NCBI GenBank assembly: GCA_022453515.1
Contig: JAJNNY010000057.1
Coordinates: 124,001-188,000 of the forward strand
DNA length: 64,000 nucleotides
DNA from: Astrocystis sublimbata
Taxonomy: Eukaryota > Ascomycota > Sordariomycetes > Xylariales > Xylariaceae
Reading direction: 5' to 3'
A program made the position numbers and the translations under genes. Below the pieces are notes generated by a model. The model searched no databases and was not told the DNA's origin. It was given only the letters and a program-made list of their open reading frames with translations. This document shows, piece by piece, positions 19,634-53,824 of the stretch. Positions within the stretch are counted from its first letter, which is position 1. Each line of letters opens with the position of its first letter.

Positions 19634-20810
19634 ATGCTCGAAATCAAGTGCTCAGGGAGTCCCTACGAGGTAAGGCTTCTGCGCATTGATTGATTGATTG
19701 ATTCACACGACGCGCACCTACATACCTCCTAGGTACATTATGTACATGCGTTCGCTAAAACGTGCGCCGAGGTAGATAGGCATCGCGCACGGCAGTGCCG
19801 CCAAAGCCAACATCGCCGGCTCAATAGACTTCTACGCTCGCTTATTCCAGACAACGTGCTCGCTGCCATGGTCTGAAGTGCGGCACGAGGCAGCGACATA
19901 CGTCGCGTCTCTGGAGGCCCTCGCGCCGCGGTACATGGAGGAAATCAGAGGCATCGCCGAGGGTTCGGGGCGGACCTTTCTCGACATCCTCGCCCTCAAC
20001 ATCAGGACTGAGATCATGTTTGGTCTGTACTCAGACGTGAAGAAAGACATGACGCAGCTCCCGAGCGACGGCTGCACGGCCCTGGGATGGCTGGCTGATT
20101 CTAATACTTCGTACCTCGCGCAGAACTGGGACTGGATGGCCGAACAGGGCCCCAATCTTGTCGTATGCCACGTCTCGTCACAGCTAGACGCCGATGATAT
20201 CCCGGCCTTCGCCACTGTGACTGAGGCCGGCATCATTGCCAAGGCCGGCCTCAATGCCGCCGGCGTCGGCTGCTGCCTGAACGCCATCAAATGCCGCGGC
20301 GTGGACCCCTCCAAATTGCCCATCCACTTCGCGCTGCGCAAGGTCTTGGAATCGCCCTCGCGCAAAGCCGCGGTGGAGACTATCAAGCGCGCTGGTGTTG
20401 CGGGGAGCGGACATATCCTCGTCGGAGACGCGACGGGCGCGACGGGACTCGAGTGCACTAGTAAATGGGTGAAGGAAGTCCGCATGGACGCGCAGAAGAG
20501 AGTGTGTCATACGAATCACCTCATTCTCGATCACGACGATGTCGAAGAGCCGCCTTGGCTGGAGGACTCTCCGGCGCGGCTTGCGAGGGTGCGGGAGCTT
20601 ACGGCGGGTATGGTTCGTCCGTCGCTTGATGACATTGTCAATGTTTTGAGCGACACGGAGGGATACCCGTGTTCGATTAATAGGAGGCAGGAGGCTGCTT
20701 CGGTGGCGGAGACGCTGTTTACTATTGTTATGGACCTGACGGGGAAGGAGGCGAGGGTCACGTTCGGTAGACCGTCGGAGGTCCGCGAGGAGATGGCGAT
20801 TTCCTTCTAG
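19634..20810 (+). CDS. Isopenicillin N acyltransferase-like protein (peptidase C45)
   Basis: Two exons (19634-19669 and 19776-20810) joined in phase 0 across a 106-nt intron give 356 residues, almost exactly the length of the Penicillium acyltransferase. The first exon encodes only 12 residues (MLEIKCSGSPYE). The join gives YEIGIAHGSAAKANIAGSID, the family N-terminus. Residue C112 in SDGCTALGW is the expected autocatalytic cleavage site and N-terminal nucleophile. Other family marks are YLAQNWDWM, TVTEAGIIAKAGLN, CHTNH and VTFGRP. Known relatives (PenDE/AatA, AatB) process themselves and swap the side chain of isopenicillin N or cleave amides. The C-terminus ISF is not a peroxisomal PTS1, unlike PenDE. 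No ACV synthetase or IPN synthase gene is in the window, so the substrate is unknown and the symbol is left blank. Confidence 0.88.
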
Positions 20811-40691: not shown

Positions 40692-43600
40692 CTAGAACCC
40701 ATTCCGCTGCTTATTCAGCCCATCAGCAGACGTAGGCGGCGTCATAGTCGCATCATCAAGCAAACTATCGAGCGTCGAAAGACTCTCAAGCGAATCCTTC
40801 CCGCGCGGCGCAAGCCCATGGCGATGCTGATGCAACCTCGGGGGCGCGCTCAAGGCATTCATAGTCGGATCATTAGCAGCCAGACTCGTAGGCCCCGTCC
40901 CAACAGTGAGTTTTCTCAAATTCTTCCCCCACGTCGAAGCCGGGTTTCGCGTCGACAAATTCCTCGACGGGTTCCGCTTCAGAAAACTCCGCCGGTGCCG
41001 CAGCTGCGTCTCCTGCTGCTTGGCGATGATGAGCTCGTACTGCTGCATCATGGTCGGGTGGTCGATGATTTCTTCAGTGGTGTACACCTTCTGCTCTAGC
41101 CCCGGGAAACGCGGCACTTTCTGCGTGTAGTACCGCGCGAGCTCGGCCGCCGGCATGTGCGCGCCCCAGATCTCGTAGAAGGGCACGCTGCGGATGTCCG
41201 CGACTTGCAGGTTCTGCGTGCCGAGCACCGCGTCCCACGCCGTGGCGATGACGCTGTGCGCTGCGCGCGCGTGGTCTGGGTCGACGGATAACACGGGTGA
41301 TAGCACGCTGCTCTCGCGCTTCGGTGCTGGTAGAGGGATTCGCGGCGTTGTGTAGCTGTCGTTCAGCCCCTTGAGTATTAGTGGTTCCATGACGAAGTCG
41401 GCCTTGGTCAGGACTGAGAGGGTGGAACATAGCATTCGCAACACCTCCTCGGCGAAGAAGGTCTGGATCTTCTTCTCGCAGAAGGTCACGGATACTTCGA
41501 CCTGGTTTGAGCCGGCGGAGATGGTTTGCACGAATACGTCGGAGTCTTCGTGGCTTAGACCCATCATGTCCAGCGTGCAGGAGGCGTCGCCGATGGTGAA
41601 GTTGAGGAACTTGTACCGCTCCGATTGGCGCTGGTGGTGCACGACGGTGCTGAAGCGGGTCCACGATGGCCAGGCCGTGCAGTTGTTGATGACATCGGCC
41701 GTTTGCAGGTTCTCGTACGGGATGCTGGCGACGTACTGGCTTTGTATGTTTTTGAAGTACTCGAGCGGCGGGATAGGGTGGTCGGGGATCTGTGTCCGCA
41801 CGGGTATCACGTTGCCCTTGGGTCCGACCACGTTGGAGATGGTCTGGCCGTTGGCGAGGCTTAGATGTCTGCCTTCGACCATGTGGCCGAACACGACGTC
41901 GTCAGTGCCGGACAGGTTCGACAAGACGATCGACCACGCGCCCTTGAGTATGGACTCGAATGGTATGCCGAAGTTTTGAAGGGAGCCGATGGATATCTTC
42001 TGCTGCAACGTCTTCGGATTGGAGTTGGCGACGGGGAGAGAGGGTTGTGACACGACTTGTGTCATAGACGCGCCTTCGAGGAGGGAGTGCCAGTACTCTG
42101 AAGCTCCACTCGCGTATGTCGATCGTACTGCTCTGATGACTTCGCAGAAACCGGTGCTTTGCGTCATGGGACCGGTTTGTCGATAGAAGCGGCCGAGGTC
42201 GCGAACCAAGATAGGGATGGATAGGTCGTCGTACTGCGCACGCGACAGTCGCATGATGAGGATTGAGCTTTTTCCTGCGTCCAAAAAGGAGAATTTGGTG
42301 ACAGGGCGACGGAAATCGATAGGCATGGGCTGGTCTCGTTTGACGAGTTTGCTGGCTAGGTTGCTCATTCGCCAGTTCTGGCATTGATAGCGCAAGAACT
42401 CTGGCCGGTAGGACCGGAGTACGGTCTGGTAGACCTGGCGACTGTGGGATACGAACGCCGTCCGCAGGATGGGATGGGCTTTTGTCAGCATGAAACATGC
42501 GTTTTCGAGTTTGTGCCAATCTAGATATCCCATGGCGTTGAGCATGAAGTAGGACACATTGCCCCGTGCTTGCAGCATGGCAGACTCCACGAACATGATC
42601 TGAAGAGATGTGGCTTCTGCCACATCCTCGATAACGCTTCTGTCCGAGCCGAGTTTGTTCGCTGTCATTTGGGAGTCGAATCCGCCGTCACCGAGGCCCG
42701 CCTTGACCGTAGGTAGCTGAAAGCCGGTTATACCCTTGCATAGTTCAGATAGTGTGTGATTGTGTAAGATGTCGAGGATGGAAATGTCTATTCCCCGTTG
42801 ACGACACATGACAACGAGGCTGTGAGCCTCAACGATGTCGCCTCCCAGGGACATAAAGCCGTCCTTGGCCGTGATCGTCGCATGGTCCTCGACCCCCAAC
42901 ACCTGAGCCCAAAGAGCTCGCATTTGCTGTTCCGCCTGGGTCAAGGGGACAGGCGGGAGTTCAGGGAATTCCATTTCATGCATATTATCAACATCCACTA
43001 GCGACAGAAGCTGCGGTCTTGATAAGCCCGCAATCAGCTTCTGAAGACCTCGTCTGTCGACTCGTAACGAGGATGTCAGGGGCAGTCGGCGGACGGGGAC
43101 ATAAGCCAACGGAAGTGGCAGTTTCTCGCGAAGACCCGCGTTGACCTTCTGCTTGTAGTAGAAAAGCCTTTGTCTCGTTGCGTTGTTGAGGTTAATGAGA
43201 TCCTCTCTTCCCCCGAATAGCGCGTCGCTGAGCTCGACAAAGACAGTGAGCACTGGTGTGGATTGCGTGTCCTTGAAGGCGACTGGTTCGATAACGACAT
43301 CTACCCCTTCGCCGATACAGTTGCGGAGCTGTGACTCGATCTCGGACATGTGAAGAGAAATGCCCCTGGTCTCGTCTCTCTCGCCCTCAGGGGTTACGAA
43401 CTCAATCTCACCCCTTTCTCGGTAGCGCACGAACCGGCCGGTTTTGAGAAGGCGGCTGCCTGACTGATCCAGCAGCGATTTGGCTCGCGTGATGCTGGAT
43501 CGGACGAGGACATCGAAATCGAGGTTCATCATGTCCAGCGAGCTAGCGCTGGAGAGGGTAGCTCCTCCGATCACGAGCTCTCCAAGCGCGCCAACCGGCA

Positions 43601-46600
43601 TGAGCCGGTTGTGATCGTCTGGACTCACGATCCAAAAGTTTCCGCAGAAGGGGTTTCCAAAGCCCTGGGCCATGGGAGGTTTTGCCATTTCCGTCGCTGC
43701 GAGACCAAGGGGACATGCTTCCGCAGAGCCGTAGACGAGGACGATCTTGGCCCTGCCCGTCCACTTCTGGTAAACCTCGGCGTCGAGATGCGTGGCACGG
43801 AAACAGACCACGGCCATATCCGGCAGGGAGTCGGGATCCAGCTTGCGCGAGAGCGGGGGCGTCAGATATGTCCAGTTGATCCTCATGCGCTGCGCAGCTG
43901 CTGTAAAGCCCATGATTCTCTCGGCGCCCGAGGGCATGCATACACAGCCCCCGTTCACCAGGGTTGTGAAGATCTCTGCTAAAGAAACATCAACAGCAAA
44001 GGAGGAGAGCTGCATCACTCGGCTTGATGGGTTGATGCGAAGCGTCGGGCCTTGACCAGCGCAAGAGGTGGCCAAGGCTCCATGGCTGTAAGATACTGCC
44101 TTATAAGTCTTGGGGCTAGTAGGTGCCAGGAGGATGCAGGCTATGTCGAAAGGCCTGGTTGGCACAGGTGCGGGCAACTCAATCCCTTGCACGTATGGCG
44201 ACGTAATGTGCTGCTCACCGATTGGGATAGTAGGGCATCCCGAGTTCTCAAAGTATCCACGTACGCTATCCGAGGCCAGGATGAAACCCCGATGAATAAC
44301 TTGTATAATCCAAGGGAACATGTCCGTGGCCTCGGAGTCGATAGGAATGAGAATTCCACCCATCCTAAAAAAAAGAAAGTCAGTCTTAAGAATCATGCAC
44401 ACGGCCTGTCTCTGGGGTAATGCGATCACCACTTACATAAGAACAGCCAACATGGCCACAATAGCCCATCGACTCTTGTCAACGACGACGGGCAGCGGCA
44501 TCTGTGGCCTGACGCCGATATTCAACATATACTGAGCCAAACCCCTGGCAAGCTTACAAAGTTCCGCATAGGTGAAAGCGCCATCCCAGCCGTATACGGC
44601 TTGGATATCGGCATTGTTGTGTGCCTGGGCTGCGATGAGGGTGGGAAGATGGTTACTCTGAACGTCGATCTGGGGCATGCTATTCCATGCCAGTATCTGG
44701 TTGTGATCGTGCACAGTGAAGAGGTCCGATTCCTTGACCGTTGCGCTTGGGCTCTCCAGGATGGTCTCGACGGCTTTCCCGAGAACGTGACCCATGGTGA
44801 TGGCCTGTTGAGTGGCGAGGATGCGATGTCCAATGACGACGGTCAGGTTACCGCCGCGAATACAGAAATCTACGTTAATATCGTATTCGGAAGCTTGCGT
44901 GGAGCTGTTGTGAGAGAATCTGCTGTTCGGATTTATGTCTTCGTAGGTGAAGGATAGGCACGTGTTGAACAGTCGTTTGCCCTTCGTGCCGAGCTCGTGC
45001 TCGATCACGCTCATAGGTACATGTTGATGTTGTATGGCTTTTTGGTGCTCTTGTTGGGCATCCCGCAGGAGTTGGACAATAGTCTGGTTAGCAAGCGCGC
45101 GAGTTCTGCCGACCAAAACCCTCGAAAACGGCCCAACAGCGCTCTCAAGTCCCGCAATGGGTAGGTCCCGGCCCGAAGTGCGGTAGCCGAAGCACACTTC
45201 GTGAACGCCGAGAAATGTTCGTAGTAATATGCCCCAAGCGACTCTAAGTATGGTTGATTTATCAACTTTGTAAAACCGGGCGAAGTCGTGTAGACGTTGA
45301 AAGGGGATCTGTAATTCGACAGAGGTCGTCTGCCATTCAGCAACACCTGGAACCGAGAGTAAGTGAGGAAAGTGACAAGGTTGCATACCGTGCAGCTTGT
45401 CTTTCCAGAATTTCGTCTGTGTCGCCATGGGTGTCGTCTTGAGTCGCTGATAATACTCGGGGAACGAGAGCTGGTTAACACTGGCAGGCTGTCCTTCGAA
45501 ATAAACCTGCTCGAGTTCGTTGAAGAGAATTGCGATACTTGTGACCTGTTTTATTGTTAGATTTAAACCCAAACAGAGTGGTGAAGGGTTTGGACAATCG
45601 GCCATGGAGAAGACGTGAACCGTAAGACATGGAAATATTGCTAGGGAAAGGGGCTAGTAGAATGTAGGGAAGAGCAAGACAGCTTACATCGCAAATGGCC
45701 TGGCTGACCTCCAGCTTCAGGTAAGCCCTGGCCTTGGTCTGGCAGACAATAAGCCGATGCCATGGTATGCCCTCTTTCAAATGCAGTGGCGGAACGTTTC
45801 CAATGGCTGCTATCGGACCCTTGACCCCCTCACTCTCGATGAACAGCATATTAGGCGAATGATTGCGCAGAACAACCTGGTCGTAGAGCCCCTCTTTCAG
45901 AACACTAGGCGAAAACAGGGTACGCATAGACGGATGTTGCTGTGTAACCTGGTACCACGCATCACAGATCCTCGACGTGTCTAGGGTGCTGCCGACCGTG
46001 TTCAGTTCATAAGTGACTTGCGCAAGCGAACTGCCTGGTAATAGCGATTGGTGGACCAGAACACACTGCTGGCACCCAGTGGCGGGAAAGACATCTTGGA
46101 TGTTGCCGGTGTTCAGGTTCAGCTTGGGGAGAATGTCTCGATTAAGTTGATTCAGCCCTTCGGGCGTAACGCCCAAGTACGGGACGTCTGACATAGACAG
46201 CCCCGGCGCGTAGTCCTTCAATCTACTAATTGATTGACGTAGGACGCGCTCGTAATTGCGAATCCAAGTCTGTATCTGTTCGCGATGTTTCGAGTCTCGG
46301 TGATGAAGGAACTTCAGCTTCGCCTCGCCCTCTTCCATCCATACGGATACCTCGAAGATGGCGATGCGGCCGACGTTGCGGCCGACATCCGCGGTATCGG
46401 ATCCCATCGCCTTGCCAGGGATGTCTAGTTCCTCGAAGACGGCGTTCTGGCTCTTCACGCGTCTCAGGGACCCTGCATACGTGAAGATGAGCTCAAAGGG
46501 GCAATGGGAGTAGGCGAATGATTCAGCCGATGGGGCATCGATGAGATTAGTTGTAAAATGCGTGAGACTGGTCTTGGAAGCGGCCCGCCGAGCATCTTTG

Positions 46601-49113
46601 ACCAGACTCGAGATGGAGAACAAATCGTCTGTCGGCGACACCTTGACCACGAGGGGACACAAGTAGGTAAACCAGCCCACAGTCCCAAGTATATCGCGGT
46701 TTGGATCCAGAGCCGATCGCTCGTGCTCTTGATTCCAGAGAATCGGTGGGGATCGGTCTCGGAATGTCTGCGCGAAAGAGAGTAGGAGAGCCGACATGAA
46801 GATATCGCAGGAATCTGTCTTGAGCTCTCTGCTGGCCGCTTCCAGCACGGATGTCACCTCGGACTCCAGCGTGAAGCCAAATGCGACGGTGCTCCCGTAT
46901 GTATTGAGGGTATCCTTGACGCCCCAGTATTCCCAGTTGCGCGGCGGGAGTTTCTCAAATGCGAGCTCGATGTCGTCGGTGGTCGTCTGCACACGGTGTT
47001 TTTGATGCACAGCCCATTCCTTGAAGGTGAGGGAGTTGCCGGACACGAGCTGCCCATCGGTGAGTAGTCTCTCCAGATCATCAGCTACAACCTGCCACGA
47101 CTTCAGATCGACGACGAGGTGGTGTGCGACAAGGTAAAGGAGCTGATAGCCATCGTTTGTATGGAAGTGATGGGCGGCAAAGACAGGGCCGTTCTCGATA
47201 TTAATGGAGAATTGAGCGGCCGTGGCGACGGACTCGAGCTCAGCGTTCGTGCCGATCAGGTGGTGCGCAAAAAGGTACGAGGTAGGGAGCACCGGTTCGG
47301 TCGACTGCCACCACGACCCGTTGGCGAAGTGAAAACGGGTGCGCAGCATCTTGTGATGGCCTACCACGGCCTCGAGGGCGGCGCGTAGATCCTCGACGCC
47401 GATGCTCTGCTTCAGTCGCAATAGTATGCTCTGGTTGAACCTATAATCACCATCGCTCGTTTTCCGCCGCGCCGAGTCCTTACCCATCCGTGTGTGAAAA
47501 TAGAGGTGTTGCATGGGTGACAGGTCGTACATATCAGGGGCGGATTCTACCGGTTCTGGGAACTGCGCCTCGGCAGGATTGGCGAGCGCGGCCAGCTCCA
47601 TCAAACTCGAAGCCTGCATGACGTCTCTAGCTGCGATGGGAATGCCTTCCGACTGGAATCGAACAGCGAGTTCCTCTGCCGCATGGGGGTCTCCTCCGAG
47701 ATGCGTGAAAGACAGGTTCATGCCTATCTCCTCCTGCTCGACGCGCAATATCTGGCTTACGGCATTCGAAAGCCGTCTTTCCATTGTCGTCGACGGTTTC
47801 CTCAACTCACCCTTCGATTCGATGGACATGATGCGCCGGTACAGGTCATCGTTCGCATTCTGGATCCACGTCTGCAGCTTTCTGCGATTGACCTGGCCCT
47901 CGCTGTCCAAAGGCATCTTCTCCAGGGGTATCCAAACATTGGGCATGCATTCGGGCGAGAGCTGAGACTCGACAGCTCTGCGAATGGTGGGAAGGTTCCT
48001 AGTGTAGTAGGCGTTTTGCAATCTGATCTCGCCATTGTCGCTGCTGCCGGGGACGGTGCCGCTGCTGTTGCTTTGTTCTGGGCCTTGGGTACCGCTGTCT
48101 GATAGGGTGAGCATGGCGACGACACGTCCCTCAAAGAGCCCAGCTTTGGGCTTCACCACAACCGCTCTGGAAACACCGTTTTCCGATGAAAGGGTCTGCT
48201 CAACATCGTTACGTAACCTACGCGAAGCTTTAGGGGGGATGGCTGGGGGGTTGCTGTACAGCGATGCTTGATATCTCATGCCTTGGACGCTGCTCTGCGG
48301 GGAGATGGGATCTACCGAGCTCACATTAGATGGCAATCTTGCCTCGCCCGGAAGCGGATTCGGGCTCAGCGGCGTCATGTTCCCACCTCGCTGTACCAAC
48401 ATCCTGCCGTCCTTTTCCACCACGGGCCCAACGGGCAGACCACGGGCGTCGCGACCTACGGCCATGTCTTCTGCTGGCCTGGGTTTCCAGCCAGGTTCTA
48501 CGGGCCAAGGGTCGGAGCGGGGCGCATCGCCGTACAGCTCGGCCGACGGTCTGAAGGGAAGACTCTCCATCGGTCTGCCAGCTTCGGCGGCTACAGGTTC
48601 GTGCCCGTACGGAGTGTTGTAGTATGGGACTTGGGTGAAAGGCGACACGGAGGTCACCGAGTTGTTACGGGCACGATGCGCAGACATTACAGTCGGTTGA
48701 CGTCGAAGAAAGGTCGATGATGTCTCGTGAACACCGCCATGCCTGCTCCCCTCGCCGCCCTGCACTCTATGGTCGTGAACGTCGTTGTCCTGGTCGTAGT
48801 ATTCGTAATCGTCGTCGTCGTGGCCCCAGGGGATGCCGTAGAAGGGTTGAGGTAGCTCGTTGGTGGCGACGCCGAGAGCGTCGGCGACAGATCTGAACAG
48901 GGCGGGCGTGTGTCGTCCGTCGTCTGTCTGGGCCATGGATGGGGTGTTCGCGGGCGACGAGAGGAAGCTGGCGGCAGTCTGGGGCATCGGCATGACATTT
49001 TCCGCCGATCTAACCTCGCGCAGGGACCGATCTCGCGGGCCATCGTCAAGGGGGTAGCTGGTGGTATCAAGTCGAGGTAAGGCTGACAGGGTAGACCATG
49101 TCGGATTGGCCAT
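40692..49113 (-). CDS. NRPS-derived pseudo-synthetase, catalytically degenerate
   Basis: Three exons (49113-45688, 45545-44437, 44364-40692; introns 142 and 72 nt) give 2735 residues. The order is: disordered residues 1-300; C-terminal remnant of an adenylation domain (about 310-430); carrier 1 with LGGDP (P476 for the Ser); epimerisation/condensation domain with HHLVVD (H664, H665, D669); condensation domain with SQAICDV at 1137-1143 in place of HHxxxDG; adenylation domain with PTSPKTYKA (about 1595) for the P-loop, VYGSAE, TGRFVR for TGDxxR and SSLRVDRRGL for the A10 Lys region; carrier 2 with LGGDI (I2022); condensation domain with SRAQYDD (about 2219); and a carrier-like domain with WGAHMPA (about 2582), then a polar tail. 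Folding motifs persist while catalytic residues are gone. No stops or frameshifts were seen, so it is probably expressed as a non-synthetic protein. Confidence 0.85.
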
Positions 49114-51312: not shown

Positions 51313-52516
51313 TAGCTGAGCTGGCTGCTGCATTAGCGTTGGGGCGTTTCATCGTCGGGGCCCTTGCTCGGGGACCACACAGCTAGCTGCGCCTCAGGTT
51401 TCGGCTCTTGCATCTTTCATCTTTCTAAAGTTCCAAATTCTTCTTTAATACCTATACCCATACCTGCATAACTCCGATGGTGTTATACCACCTCCTACAC
51501 CGGTATTTCGTCCTTATCGTCTGAGAACTCTACCTAAACGTATGAGGAGGAATGGTTACACCACCGCTACCGGTCGCCGGTCGCTGGTAGCTAGGTTCCC
51601 TATCTGCTCGTCTCACAATCACAATTCTTACTTATTGGAACTGGTATAGGTCCCGTACGAGTCAGGGGAACTTCTGCAAATTGCTCAAGCCCTAACGGAT
51701 TAGGCTTAGCGCCCCTGTCATCAAAGCACTTGGCTTATGTAAGATGCTGCGTGGTACAGACGTGAAATCAAACTCTAATATCAAGCCCTCAAGTTGATGT
51801 TACCCAAGTAGGTAGTCAACGTGGTGGAAAACGTGGAATCGAAACGCTAATACTAAGCGTTCATGTCGCCTCTACTACTTCCTTAGCTAAGGCTCAGCTC
51901 AATGGGCAGCTGATTGGTTAGCTAAGGGAGTTGGTTATACAACTTACTATCGTGGAATATGTATAGAATTGTATAGAACAACTCTGATATCGAGATCAAG
52001 CTTTACACAACTGTAGATTCAAACTCTAAGTCTATATTAAAATGAGTGATTAGGGTTCAGCGTTCGTCATCTATGAAAAGGCCACATCGCCTCGCAAGCT
52101 TTCTGTTTCTAGAATCTACATTTACCTTATTCTGTCTTATCCCCAGTTGAAGTTCGATTTGATATTCTGCCTCACCCCAACAAATCAACAAACTACGACC
52201 CCTTAACAGGTTCAAGAACAACTTCAACCCGTACTCTCCAGTGTCACATCTCGAAAAACGCCATCTTACCTACCTAATCTATTACCAACAAGCTAGCTAC
52301 AGCAGCTGGCTCGCCTAGGTACGTACTTGAAAGATCTGTCCTTTACTTAATCACTTACTGCCTCACTTACTGACTGACCTACTCTAGCACGGGAGTAGGC
52401 GAAATGTCATTGCCATACATCCACGAACCATCGAACTGGCACCTAGGTCATACAAACCCCTTCCTACGTCAAGAAGAAGCTGCCCTGCAGCGGCAGCAGC
52501 ATATATTAGACCTGCA
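51313..52516. repeat. Repeat debris and upstream region of the AIG2-like gene
   Basis: There is no gene here. At 51766-51800 and 51836-51866 a segment (ACGTGAAATCAAACTCTAAT and ACGTGGAATCGAAACGCTAA) occurs as a diverged direct repeat, and a third related piece lies near 51973-51997. Read on the minus strand these resemble mutated primer-site sequence (TGATATTAGAG, CGATATCAGAG). They may be remnants of Copia insertions in the opposite orientation. ACCTACCTA/CCTAGGTACGTA motifs occur at about 52268-52326. Confidence 0.35.
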
Positions 52517-53364
52517 ATGGAACGAGGTCATCAACCGCCCCCGCAACCCCAATCTCAGCCACAACCGCAACCCCAGCCCCAGCCCCAACTACACAAGGCA
52601 CTACACCCCCTCCTCCCCTGCCCCCTCTTCATCTACGGCACCCTCCGCGCCCTGCCCCTTCTCGCATGGGTCCTCACAGGCGACGCGGCCAACGTCGCGG
52701 CGGCGGCGAAGCTCGTGCGCCCGGCCGTGCTTCGCGGGCCCCACGCCCGGTACGCCGTGCGGCACGGCGACTATCCGGCGCTCGTCAGGGTCGGGGGCGA
52801 GGATGATGGGGGGAAAAGACAAAGGAAAGGGGACGGTGAAACGACGACATATGGGGAAGAGCAAGGGCAAGAGCAAGGGAAAGCTGGACGTGAGCGTGAT
52901 GGATACGTCGGAGACGGAGACGGAGATGGAGACGGCGGCCCGGATACTGACACGCATGCATCGTCACATTCACGATCACATCCACGATCACGAGCACGAG
53001 CATCACCACCATATTCACCACCATCATCACCACCACCATATTCACCACCACCATATTCATCACCATCACCACCACCATCACTATCATCAGGAATAGAAAC
53101 TGGTCTTAGTCTTAGTCTTGGTCACAGTCTCGGCGATGATCTCGGTGATGATCTAGACAGTGATCCCACAACAGAGATAGACGGCTACCTCCTGACTCCC
53201 CAAACCCTCTCGCAGCGCAGGAAACTCGACGACTTCGAAGGCGAGGCGTACGAGGTGGCGTCCGTCACCGTCACTGTCCTCACTCCTGCTCCTGCTCCTG
53301 CTCCCACTCTCGGTGGTGGGAGCAGTCGCAACAACAACAACAACAACAATAATGATAACGACAA

Positions 53365-53404
<40 letters not shown>

Positions 53405-53824
53405 ACCCTCGTCAGCCTCAGCAAGCACCCCCACCACCACAACAACCCCCACAACCACCAACACGACTTGCACGTCGACGCCAGTCTTTTCGTGCCGGAG
53501 GGAGCTTTGTTTCGAGCAAAATCCCCATCATACACACACACACATTTACCACCAGCCTCATCATCACCATCCTAATCACATCCACCATCCCAAAAACAAA
53601 AACAAAAACAAAAACAAACACCAACCGACCACTGGATCCATCCCCCAACCCCGGTTCCTGAAACTATCACGGTCGAAGCAGACGTCTACCTCTGGGCCGG
53701 CTCCTCTGATGACCTGAGTAACGAGCCCTGGGACCTGGCGACGTTTGAACGGGAGCGGCTGGGTGATTGGTTGGATCTCTTTGAGGGGATGGAGATGGTT
53801 GGGGATGAGGATGATGATGAATAG
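52517..53824 (+). CDS. AIG2/gamma-glutamylcyclotransferase-like protein with repeat insertions
   Basis: The frame from 52517 carries the AIG2 start CPLFIYGTLRALPLLAWVL and HARYAVRHGDYPALVRV. A low-complexity insertion of about 120 residues follows, then RKLDDFEGEAYEVASVTV, the family DxFEGxxY segment. The expected C-terminus (EADVYLWAGSSDDL to RERLGDWLDLFEG) lies at 53672-53824 in the same frame but after a TAA at 53573. An intron 53316-53681 (GTGGGA...GCAG), which would remove the AAC and CAC microsatellites, keeps phase and gives 313 residues. Other donors nearby are possible, and without splicing the gene is broken. AIG2-fold proteins cleave gamma-glutamyl amines or amides, with the Glu of the FEG segment as a candidate catalytic residue. 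The N-terminal PQ repeat also comes from a microsatellite. Confidence 0.6.
52974..53085 (+). repeat. CAC/CAT trinucleotide tract
   Basis: A dense tract of CAC, CAT and TCA triplets that reads as poly-His in one frame and Ser/Pro-rich in another. It lies inside the AIG2-like gene. Confidence 0.8.
53330..53403 (+). repeat. AAC trinucleotide microsatellite
   Basis: Two runs of AAC/AAT repeats interrupted by GATAACGACAAA, reading as poly-Asn in the AIG2 frame. They fall within the proposed long intron. Confidence 0.85.

Follow-up and report, generated by a model that had tools for sequence, protein, structure and literature searches.

Gene model and domain layout

We analysed a 64,000-nucleotide stretch of contig JAJNNY010000057.1 from the fungus Astrocystis sublimbata (the window), whose minus strand carries, at 49113-40692, a three-exon gene derived from a nonribosomal peptide synthetase (NRPS). 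Removal of the two introns gives a protein of 2735 amino acids without internal stop, and splicing thus bears out the 2735 codons over three exons, free of stops and shifts, that an initial annotation of this locus had described. The gene model is composed as follows.

45688..49113, minus strand: exon 1, residues 1-1142; junction exact in deposited protein P0001
45546..45687, minus strand: intron 1, 142 nt (GTAAGC..CTAACA..ACAG)
44437..45545, minus strand: exon 2, residues 1143-1511 plus two bases
44365..44436, minus strand: intron 2, 72 nt (GTAAGT..TTTTAG); contains an in-frame stop at 44433-44435
40692..44364, minus strand: exon 3 including the stop, residues 1512-2735

The deposited Astrocystis protein P0001 corresponds exactly to residues 246-2735 (100% identity over the searched region), so that a second pipeline had placed both introns identically, and both splice junctions fall in gap-free alignment in 23/23 orthologues examined (P0002-P0024). 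GC content by codon position in exon 1 (0.60/0.45/0.67) is similar to that of four neighbouring open reading frames (ORFs), and that of the introns is 0.435, as expected for a coding gene. An annotation artefact was rejected on the identity of the deposited protein over these residues and the state shared by the orthologues. P0001 begins at M246 and omits the first 245 residues (window 48379-49113), including the LPRLDT motif, which also occurs in other orders; the longer start, giving 2735 amino acids, is probably the correct one.

The protein is built of adenylation (A), carrier (T), epimerisation-type condensation (E) and condensation (C) domains, given here from the N terminus.

48244..49113, minus strand: N-terminal tail of low conservation, residues 1-290; T0 carrier remnant, eroded in the window
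49063..49080, minus strand: N-terminal short motif LPRLDT, residues 12-17
47824..48216, minus strand: A domain without its N-core, reduced to the C-terminal subdomain, residues 300-430
47584..47775, minus strand: carrier T1, residues 447-510; P476 at the Ser position; Pfam PF00550
46222..47535, minus strand: E domain, residues 527-964; HHLVVDLKSW present, EGHGR Glu lost (QEHER)
44694..45996, minus strand: condensation domain C2, residues ~1040-1426, spanning intron 1; SQAICDV
43005..44630, minus strand: pseudo-adenylation domain, residues 1448-1965, spanning intron 2
44097..44126, minus strand: eroded P-loop A3, residues 1592-1601
43989..43991, minus strand: D1637, Asp235-equivalent of the amino-acid pocket
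43797..43805, minus strand: C1699-F1700-R1701, new near-invariant triad at pocket positions 299-301
43425..43442, minus strand: A7 motif TGRFVR, Asp lost
42735..42926, minus strand: carrier T2, residues 1992-2055; I2022 at the Ser position
41358..42686, minus strand: terminal condensation domain C3, residues 2072-2514; CT-like fold; SRAQYDD
41040..41267, minus strand: degenerate third carrier T3, residues 2545-2620; IWGAHMPA, with H2581 in place of the Ser; no Pfam hit
40695..40982, minus strand: low-conservation C-terminal tail, residues 2640-2735

The N-terminal module is thus reduced to a C-terminal A subdomain; other orders have, ahead of it, a fourth carrier-like domain (T0) that lacks the Ser. 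The E domain, the first condensation-like domain of the protein, is a large domain absent from the list of the initial annotation. The folded body is predicted to persist; the VIA list was filled by the C3 domain and says little on the remaining domains.

Loss of catalytic residues across the family

Three protein searches had 2099, 478 and 546 hits, and the best 120 of each gave together 278 distinct proteins. The family set consists of 276 rows, with the window protein and partial gene models included and P0001 dropped as the same as the window; P0094 and P0194, longer proteins (4706 and 4378 amino acids) with intact motifs, served as outgroup, and site counts were taken among rows having a residue at that site. 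Among the matches listed, family rows come from at least eight orders of Sordariomycetes and most are still full length. No orthologue from beyond Sordariomycetes was found among the named rows of these best 120 of 2099, 478 and 546 hits. Species names that recur in the family rows include Fusarium lateritium and Coniochaeta sp. 2T2.1, and two pseudo-NRPS copies (P0160 and P0161) stand under the single name of the latter. A plasma membrane permease and a siderophore regulatory protein appear among the cluster source names of P0066 and P0122, perhaps because of fused models or wrong transfer.

Every substituted segment reported by the initial annotation (P476, I2022, TSPKTYKA, TGRFVR, SSLRVDRRGL, SQAICDV, SRAQYDD) was found in the window protein, apart from its placing of the third carrier Ser position at M2582; gap-free alignment with T2 (FMSLGGDI / FYEIWGAH) assigns this position to H2581. 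The window protein has no Ser at the Ser position of any carrier, and for T3 none was found at 2580, 2581 or 2582. Across the family the carrier Ser is present in 24/185 rows for T1, in 4/275 for T2 and, at the aligned site, in 0/271 for T3. The T2 Ser site varies more than 98% of scored positions, and the adjoining Gly is retained in 274/275 rows, a combination that loss of thiolation with continued selection on the fold would predict.

Condensation domains carry the motif HHxxxDG, or SHxxxDG in fungal domains. The condensation His was found in 13/261 family rows for C2, where the window has Gln (SQAICDV), and in 0/274 for the terminal C3, where it has Arg (SRAQYDD).

For the pseudo-A domain, the 276 family sequences were compared with 13 intact A domains, namely 11 from the same genome together with those of P0094 and P0194. 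The canonical P-loop pattern occurs in 2/276 family rows versus 13/13 intact domains; in the window it is replaced by the TSPKTYKA segment, and it is shortened in many Fusarium rows. The A7 Asp is kept in 4/276 rows, and the A8 Arg and Lys occur together in 0/276 (Arg alone in 2/274, Lys alone in 11/274). The A10 segment SSLRVDRRGL, counted among the losses by the initial annotation, has indeed lost its Lys in the window, but the change is from Lys to Arg only, and 201/275 rows retain the Lys. P-loop, A7 Asp, A10 Lys and T2 Ser are found together in none of the 276 listed rows, which also contain no complete A-T module. Twelve A-domain loci were found in the Astrocystis genome, of which L018 (G000:C156:109030-110271), the A domain of another NRPS with an in-frame TAA in the six-frame view (from an intron or from decay), was not recovered; the 11 recovered controls all have a canonical P-loop.

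The losses are of the same kind across the listed family rows, and a search among these 276 for orthologues with LGGDS and the A-domain motifs, the outcome that the initial annotation named as contrary to its own claim, returned none. Identity to Neurospora, Verticillium, Diaporthe-type and Fusarium rows is ~29-46% per folded domain, with the exception of T1 in Fusarium. In a FastTree LG tree (2054 columns, 278 rows, rooted on P0094 and P0194) the 276 family rows form one clade with support of 0.996, and no order group with at least two labelled members holds a foreign labelled member, order labels being read from species names and five species looked up, including Zalerion maritima (Lulworthiales). 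The groups are Xylariales (broad sense), Sordariales with relatives, Glomerellales, Magnaporthales, Microascales, Diaporthales and Hypocreales; Xylariales branch first, followed by Sordariomycetidae-like and Hypocreomycetidae-like groups, in a tree with low support at some inner nodes (0.18 and 0.17) and with its root on two long branches. Because the gene tree groups by order, inactivation probably took place before the class radiation, with vertical descent since as the simplest history.

These data point to a pseudo-NRPS conserved through the Sordariomycetes and catalytically dead, and we consider it likely that it acts as a non-catalytic scaffold or regulator, possibly ligand-gated. It has the marks of a pseudoenzyme, with homology to an enzyme family, a fold predicted to be kept and the catalytic set lost in its members, and the conserved core and the clades by order suggest, at the protein level, that selection maintains it. 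In this respect the proposal of the initial annotation, a selected pseudo-enzyme instead of a decaying gene, gains support at the protein level from dead motifs in mostly full-length rows across the class. The ancestor would have been a multimodular fungal NRPS, probably of A-T-E-C-A-T-C-T plan, which gave up carrier, adenylation and condensation activity, most likely ahead of the class radiation. Its folded body would have been retained, between tails of low conservation in which short motifs recur. The protein, whose intracellular location we assume, would most likely work as a scaffold or regulator in which dead domains offer protein-protein surfaces, tails supply phospho-sites or docking sites, and the pseudo-A domain has probably kept an ATP-independent ability to bind a small ligand. 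In this scheme we infer from the conserved sequence that the function is non-enzymatic and that a ligand is bound, and likewise where the protein resides and that it has partners.

A proposed rebuilt ligand pocket, and the tails

Of 48 positions conserved at 90% or more in the intact A domains, the family retains 18 at 90% or more, has 25 below half and 5 in between. The 25 lost positions include the core of the ATP motifs A3, A7 and A8; the 18 retained include D1637, invariant in 276/276 rows, which we take to be the equivalent of Asp235, the residue by which known A domains hold the amino group of their substrate (numbering anchored by the LgrA alignment and motifs). A new Cys-Phe-Arg (C1699-F1700-R1701) is present in 98.6-99.3% of the family, and R1701 stands where the pocket Gly was. 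Nine positions of the family A domain are newly fixed at 95% or more, and 4 of these 9 lie on the eight specificity positions (Y1678, C1699, R1701, L1731; hypergeometric P = 4e-6 over 489 columns); with D1637 included, 6/9 specificity positions are at least 95% invariant versus 53/489 columns overall (P = 8e-5), both P values being subject to the adjacency of positions 299-301, the non-independence of related sequences, a conserved stretch seen before testing and a position map that depends on the numbering used.

This is how the pocket of a single-substrate binding group would look once ATP binding had gone, and it is specific evidence for a ligand pocket that was retained and rebuilt. A bolder and rather unlikely reading is that the pseudo-A domain is an ATP-independent small-molecule receptor with a rebuilt pocket frozen in Sordariomycetes, which would make the dead megasynthase a nutrient or metabolite sensor. 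Nucleotide binding would have been abandoned and the pocket rebuilt around Asp235 with the near-invariant Cys-Phe-Arg; the ligand would probably be amino-acid-like, perhaps acidic, and the signal would pass through the E-C body and the motif-bearing tails. Alternatively, R1701 might reach D1637 and plug the pocket with a salt bridge, so that nothing is bound and the protein is an inert scaffold, a purely structural relic. The replacement of the pocket Gly by Arg and the near fixation of both residues favour such a plug, but the invariance of six of the nine specificity positions is expected of single-substrate binders and plugging alone should need fewer fixed residues, and we regard this explanation as rather unlikely.

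Identity to four rows from other orders drops to 13-37% beyond the core, and short patterns recur in the tails. At the N terminus, [LVI]PR[LIM][DNK][TM] occurs in 83/276 rows, with all labelled order groups represented (shuffled mean 0.08); at the C terminus, [IVM]SPL[STN] occurs in 106/262 rows (shuffled mean 1.48) and an ESMTxGSS-like pattern in 63/262 (shuffled mean 0.90), all three patterns having been written after looking and counted over related, non-independent rows. The window protein carries LPRLDT and DSLESLSTLDS, a variant of the ESMTxGSS-like motif. Diaporthales rows are mostly of ~3500 amino acids. In 34/35 rows measured (P0166-P0203 minus P0186, P0194, P0199 and P0202; the 35th row, P0165, is a partial model) another 524-797 residues follow position 2600, a C-terminal extension of disordered appearance. 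This long form was considered as an intact enzyme and rejected, the extra length being C-terminal tail and the motifs equally dead.

Alternative readings and related systems

Several observations weigh against a dead protein conserved as a scaffold or regulator. Some rows retain the T1 Ser (24), the T2 Ser (4), the C2 His (13) or the A7 Asp (4), the A10 Lys is common, as stated above, and the E domain keeps its second His in 228/268 rows. A P-loop-like segment persists in two Annulohypoxylon rows (P0046 and P0047), either by ancestral retention or by reversal, with A7, A8 and T2 dead there. The tail patterns are post hoc and missing in many rows. Finally, position 2580 of T3, one before the aligned carrier Ser site and Ala in the window, is Ser in 197/271 rows. 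We read it as the Asp of GGDS, since a gap-free register is kept by the Ala (+3, in 258/271 rows) and the Leu (+6) further downstream, but a one-residue deletion in T3 would make this Ser a possible carrier Ser, an ambiguity that slightly lowered our confidence in the preferred reading.

In the E domain, HHxxxDxxSW is the best-preserved catalytic motif of the family (first His in 267/268 rows, Asp in 269/270, Trp in 267/268), it is complete in the window as HHLVVDLKSW, and the fold is predicted to be kept. This domain could thus still be an enzyme, an epimerase, acyltransferase or hydrolase acting alone or in trans, with the rest of the protein as its support. The second His of HHxxxD is the catalytic one in the condensation superfamily. 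It is precisely this residue that is replaced by Gln, Arg, Glu or Asn in 40/268 rows, with the flanking His, Asp and Trp fixed, in several lineages (Monosporascus, two Xylaria, Coniochaeta, Sodiomyces, Plectosphaerella, Fusarium and other Hypocreales). The EGHGR Glu is found in 0/269 rows, with a Glu one position later in 249, so that the pairing of second His and Glu proper to a working epimerisation domain appears to have been given up. Residual activity of this best-preserved site is possible but unlikely, and we consider an enzymatic E domain an unlikely account of the gene as a whole.

A divergent but working NRPS, which adenylates, loads and condenses by new chemistry or with a second synthetase helping in trans, would agree with the retained A10 Lys and pocket Asp, with the T3 Ser one position off, and with the literature, which counts both Fusarium NRPS3 and Neurospora NCU04531 as core genes of clusters. 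The free variation of the T2 site, the lack of Ser at the aligned T3 site and in all carriers of the window, the P-loop shortened in many Fusarium rows, and the absence of the A8 pair and of the C3 His throughout make it very improbable; the set expected of a working NRPS (carrier Ser, A3, A7, A8 and condensation His) appears to be gone. A decaying pseudogene of a normal NRPS, suggested by the many lost catalytic residues, the missing A1 core and the in-frame stop met at 44433 when intron 2 is left unspliced, is hardly credible, as this stop sits inside a standard intron, similar losses accompany long open protein models in the 276 listed rows across the class, the identity to other orders given above is kept in all folded domains except T1 in Fusarium, and neither a broken frame nor a lineage-restricted loss was seen; a recent pseudogene was rejected on the same state of the family across the class.

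Around the gene, 18 neighbouring ORFs were scanned and gave SAPS (two ORFs), GGACT, alpha/beta hydrolase, P450, AAT, DUF3433, APP1, GST and CLN3; lactonase, Cnn_1N and HhH-GPD fell below the curated cut-off and five ORFs had no hit. A biosynthetic cluster in the window was considered and rejected, as no dedicated cluster was seen among these 18 ORFs, no cluster prediction having been made. At window 52374-53575 a GGACT-like ORF overlaps another ORF, in which Asn and His codons form long runs, and an AAT-family (PF03417) ORF lies at 19776-20810, ~20 kb from the pseudo-NRPS.

FGSG_10523, the Fusarium 'NRPS3', is family member P0238. It is tabulated as NRPS 3 in a source that gives no product and records neither H3K27me3 nor expression, whether in wild type or in kmt6 (PMC3814326). 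In F. fujikuroi the cluster of NRPS3 has a score of +++ at 6 mM glutamine, against minus in each of three further conditions (PMC3694855); transcript support, taken from orthologues in the literature, is thus mixed. NRPS3 is also one of the 13 NRPSs shared by all ten genomes of another set (PMC10455376) and has been assigned to the EAS subfamily, a statement made for Fusarium NRPS3 only (PMC6480918). NCU04531, which we infer from N. tetrasperma P0116 and by exclusion to be the N. crassa orthologue, is given as the NRPS of cluster 18 in a study in which most secondary metabolite cluster gene knockouts look wild type, a result not specific to NCU04531 (PMC9239088). No statement of protein inactivity was found in the accessible literature on Fusarium NRPS3 and Neurospora NCU04531. 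Literature searches aimed at inactive, degenerate or pseudoenzyme NRPSs returned nothing beyond three papers, and the degeneracy may have been noticed before. The sources count the Fusarium and Neurospora genes among NRPS core genes for which no product is known; should the family be dead, there would be no peptide of its own to be found. It would then be a pseudoenzyme that arose from an entire multimodular synthetase and was maintained throughout a fungal class, and what a megasynthase body does without chemistry would become testable in tractable species such as Neurospora crassa.

Four kinds of known system come closest. Fusarium NRPS3 belongs to the family and is listed, in the literature as far as available, as an NRPS without product and never as catalytically dead. 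ChNPS6 (dA-T-C) likewise keeps a degenerate A domain in a conserved gene, but it has one complete A-T-C module and homologues that make extracellular siderophores (PMC2823734), whereas no complete module was found in the Astrocystis family. CT domain entries 5ejd and 5dij provided fold and motif anchors for C3, in which the family lacks the condensation His. The E domains of tyrocidine and gramicidin synthetases did so for the family E domain, from which the EGHGR Glu is missing. The HisRS-like domain of GCN2 and other pseudo-synthetase sensors use a synthetase fold without catalysis for sensing; the likeness to GCN2 lies in the dead synthetase fold, and the difference in that GCN2 has a tRNA-synthetase fold with a kinase attached, whereas the pseudo-NRPS carries no kinase.

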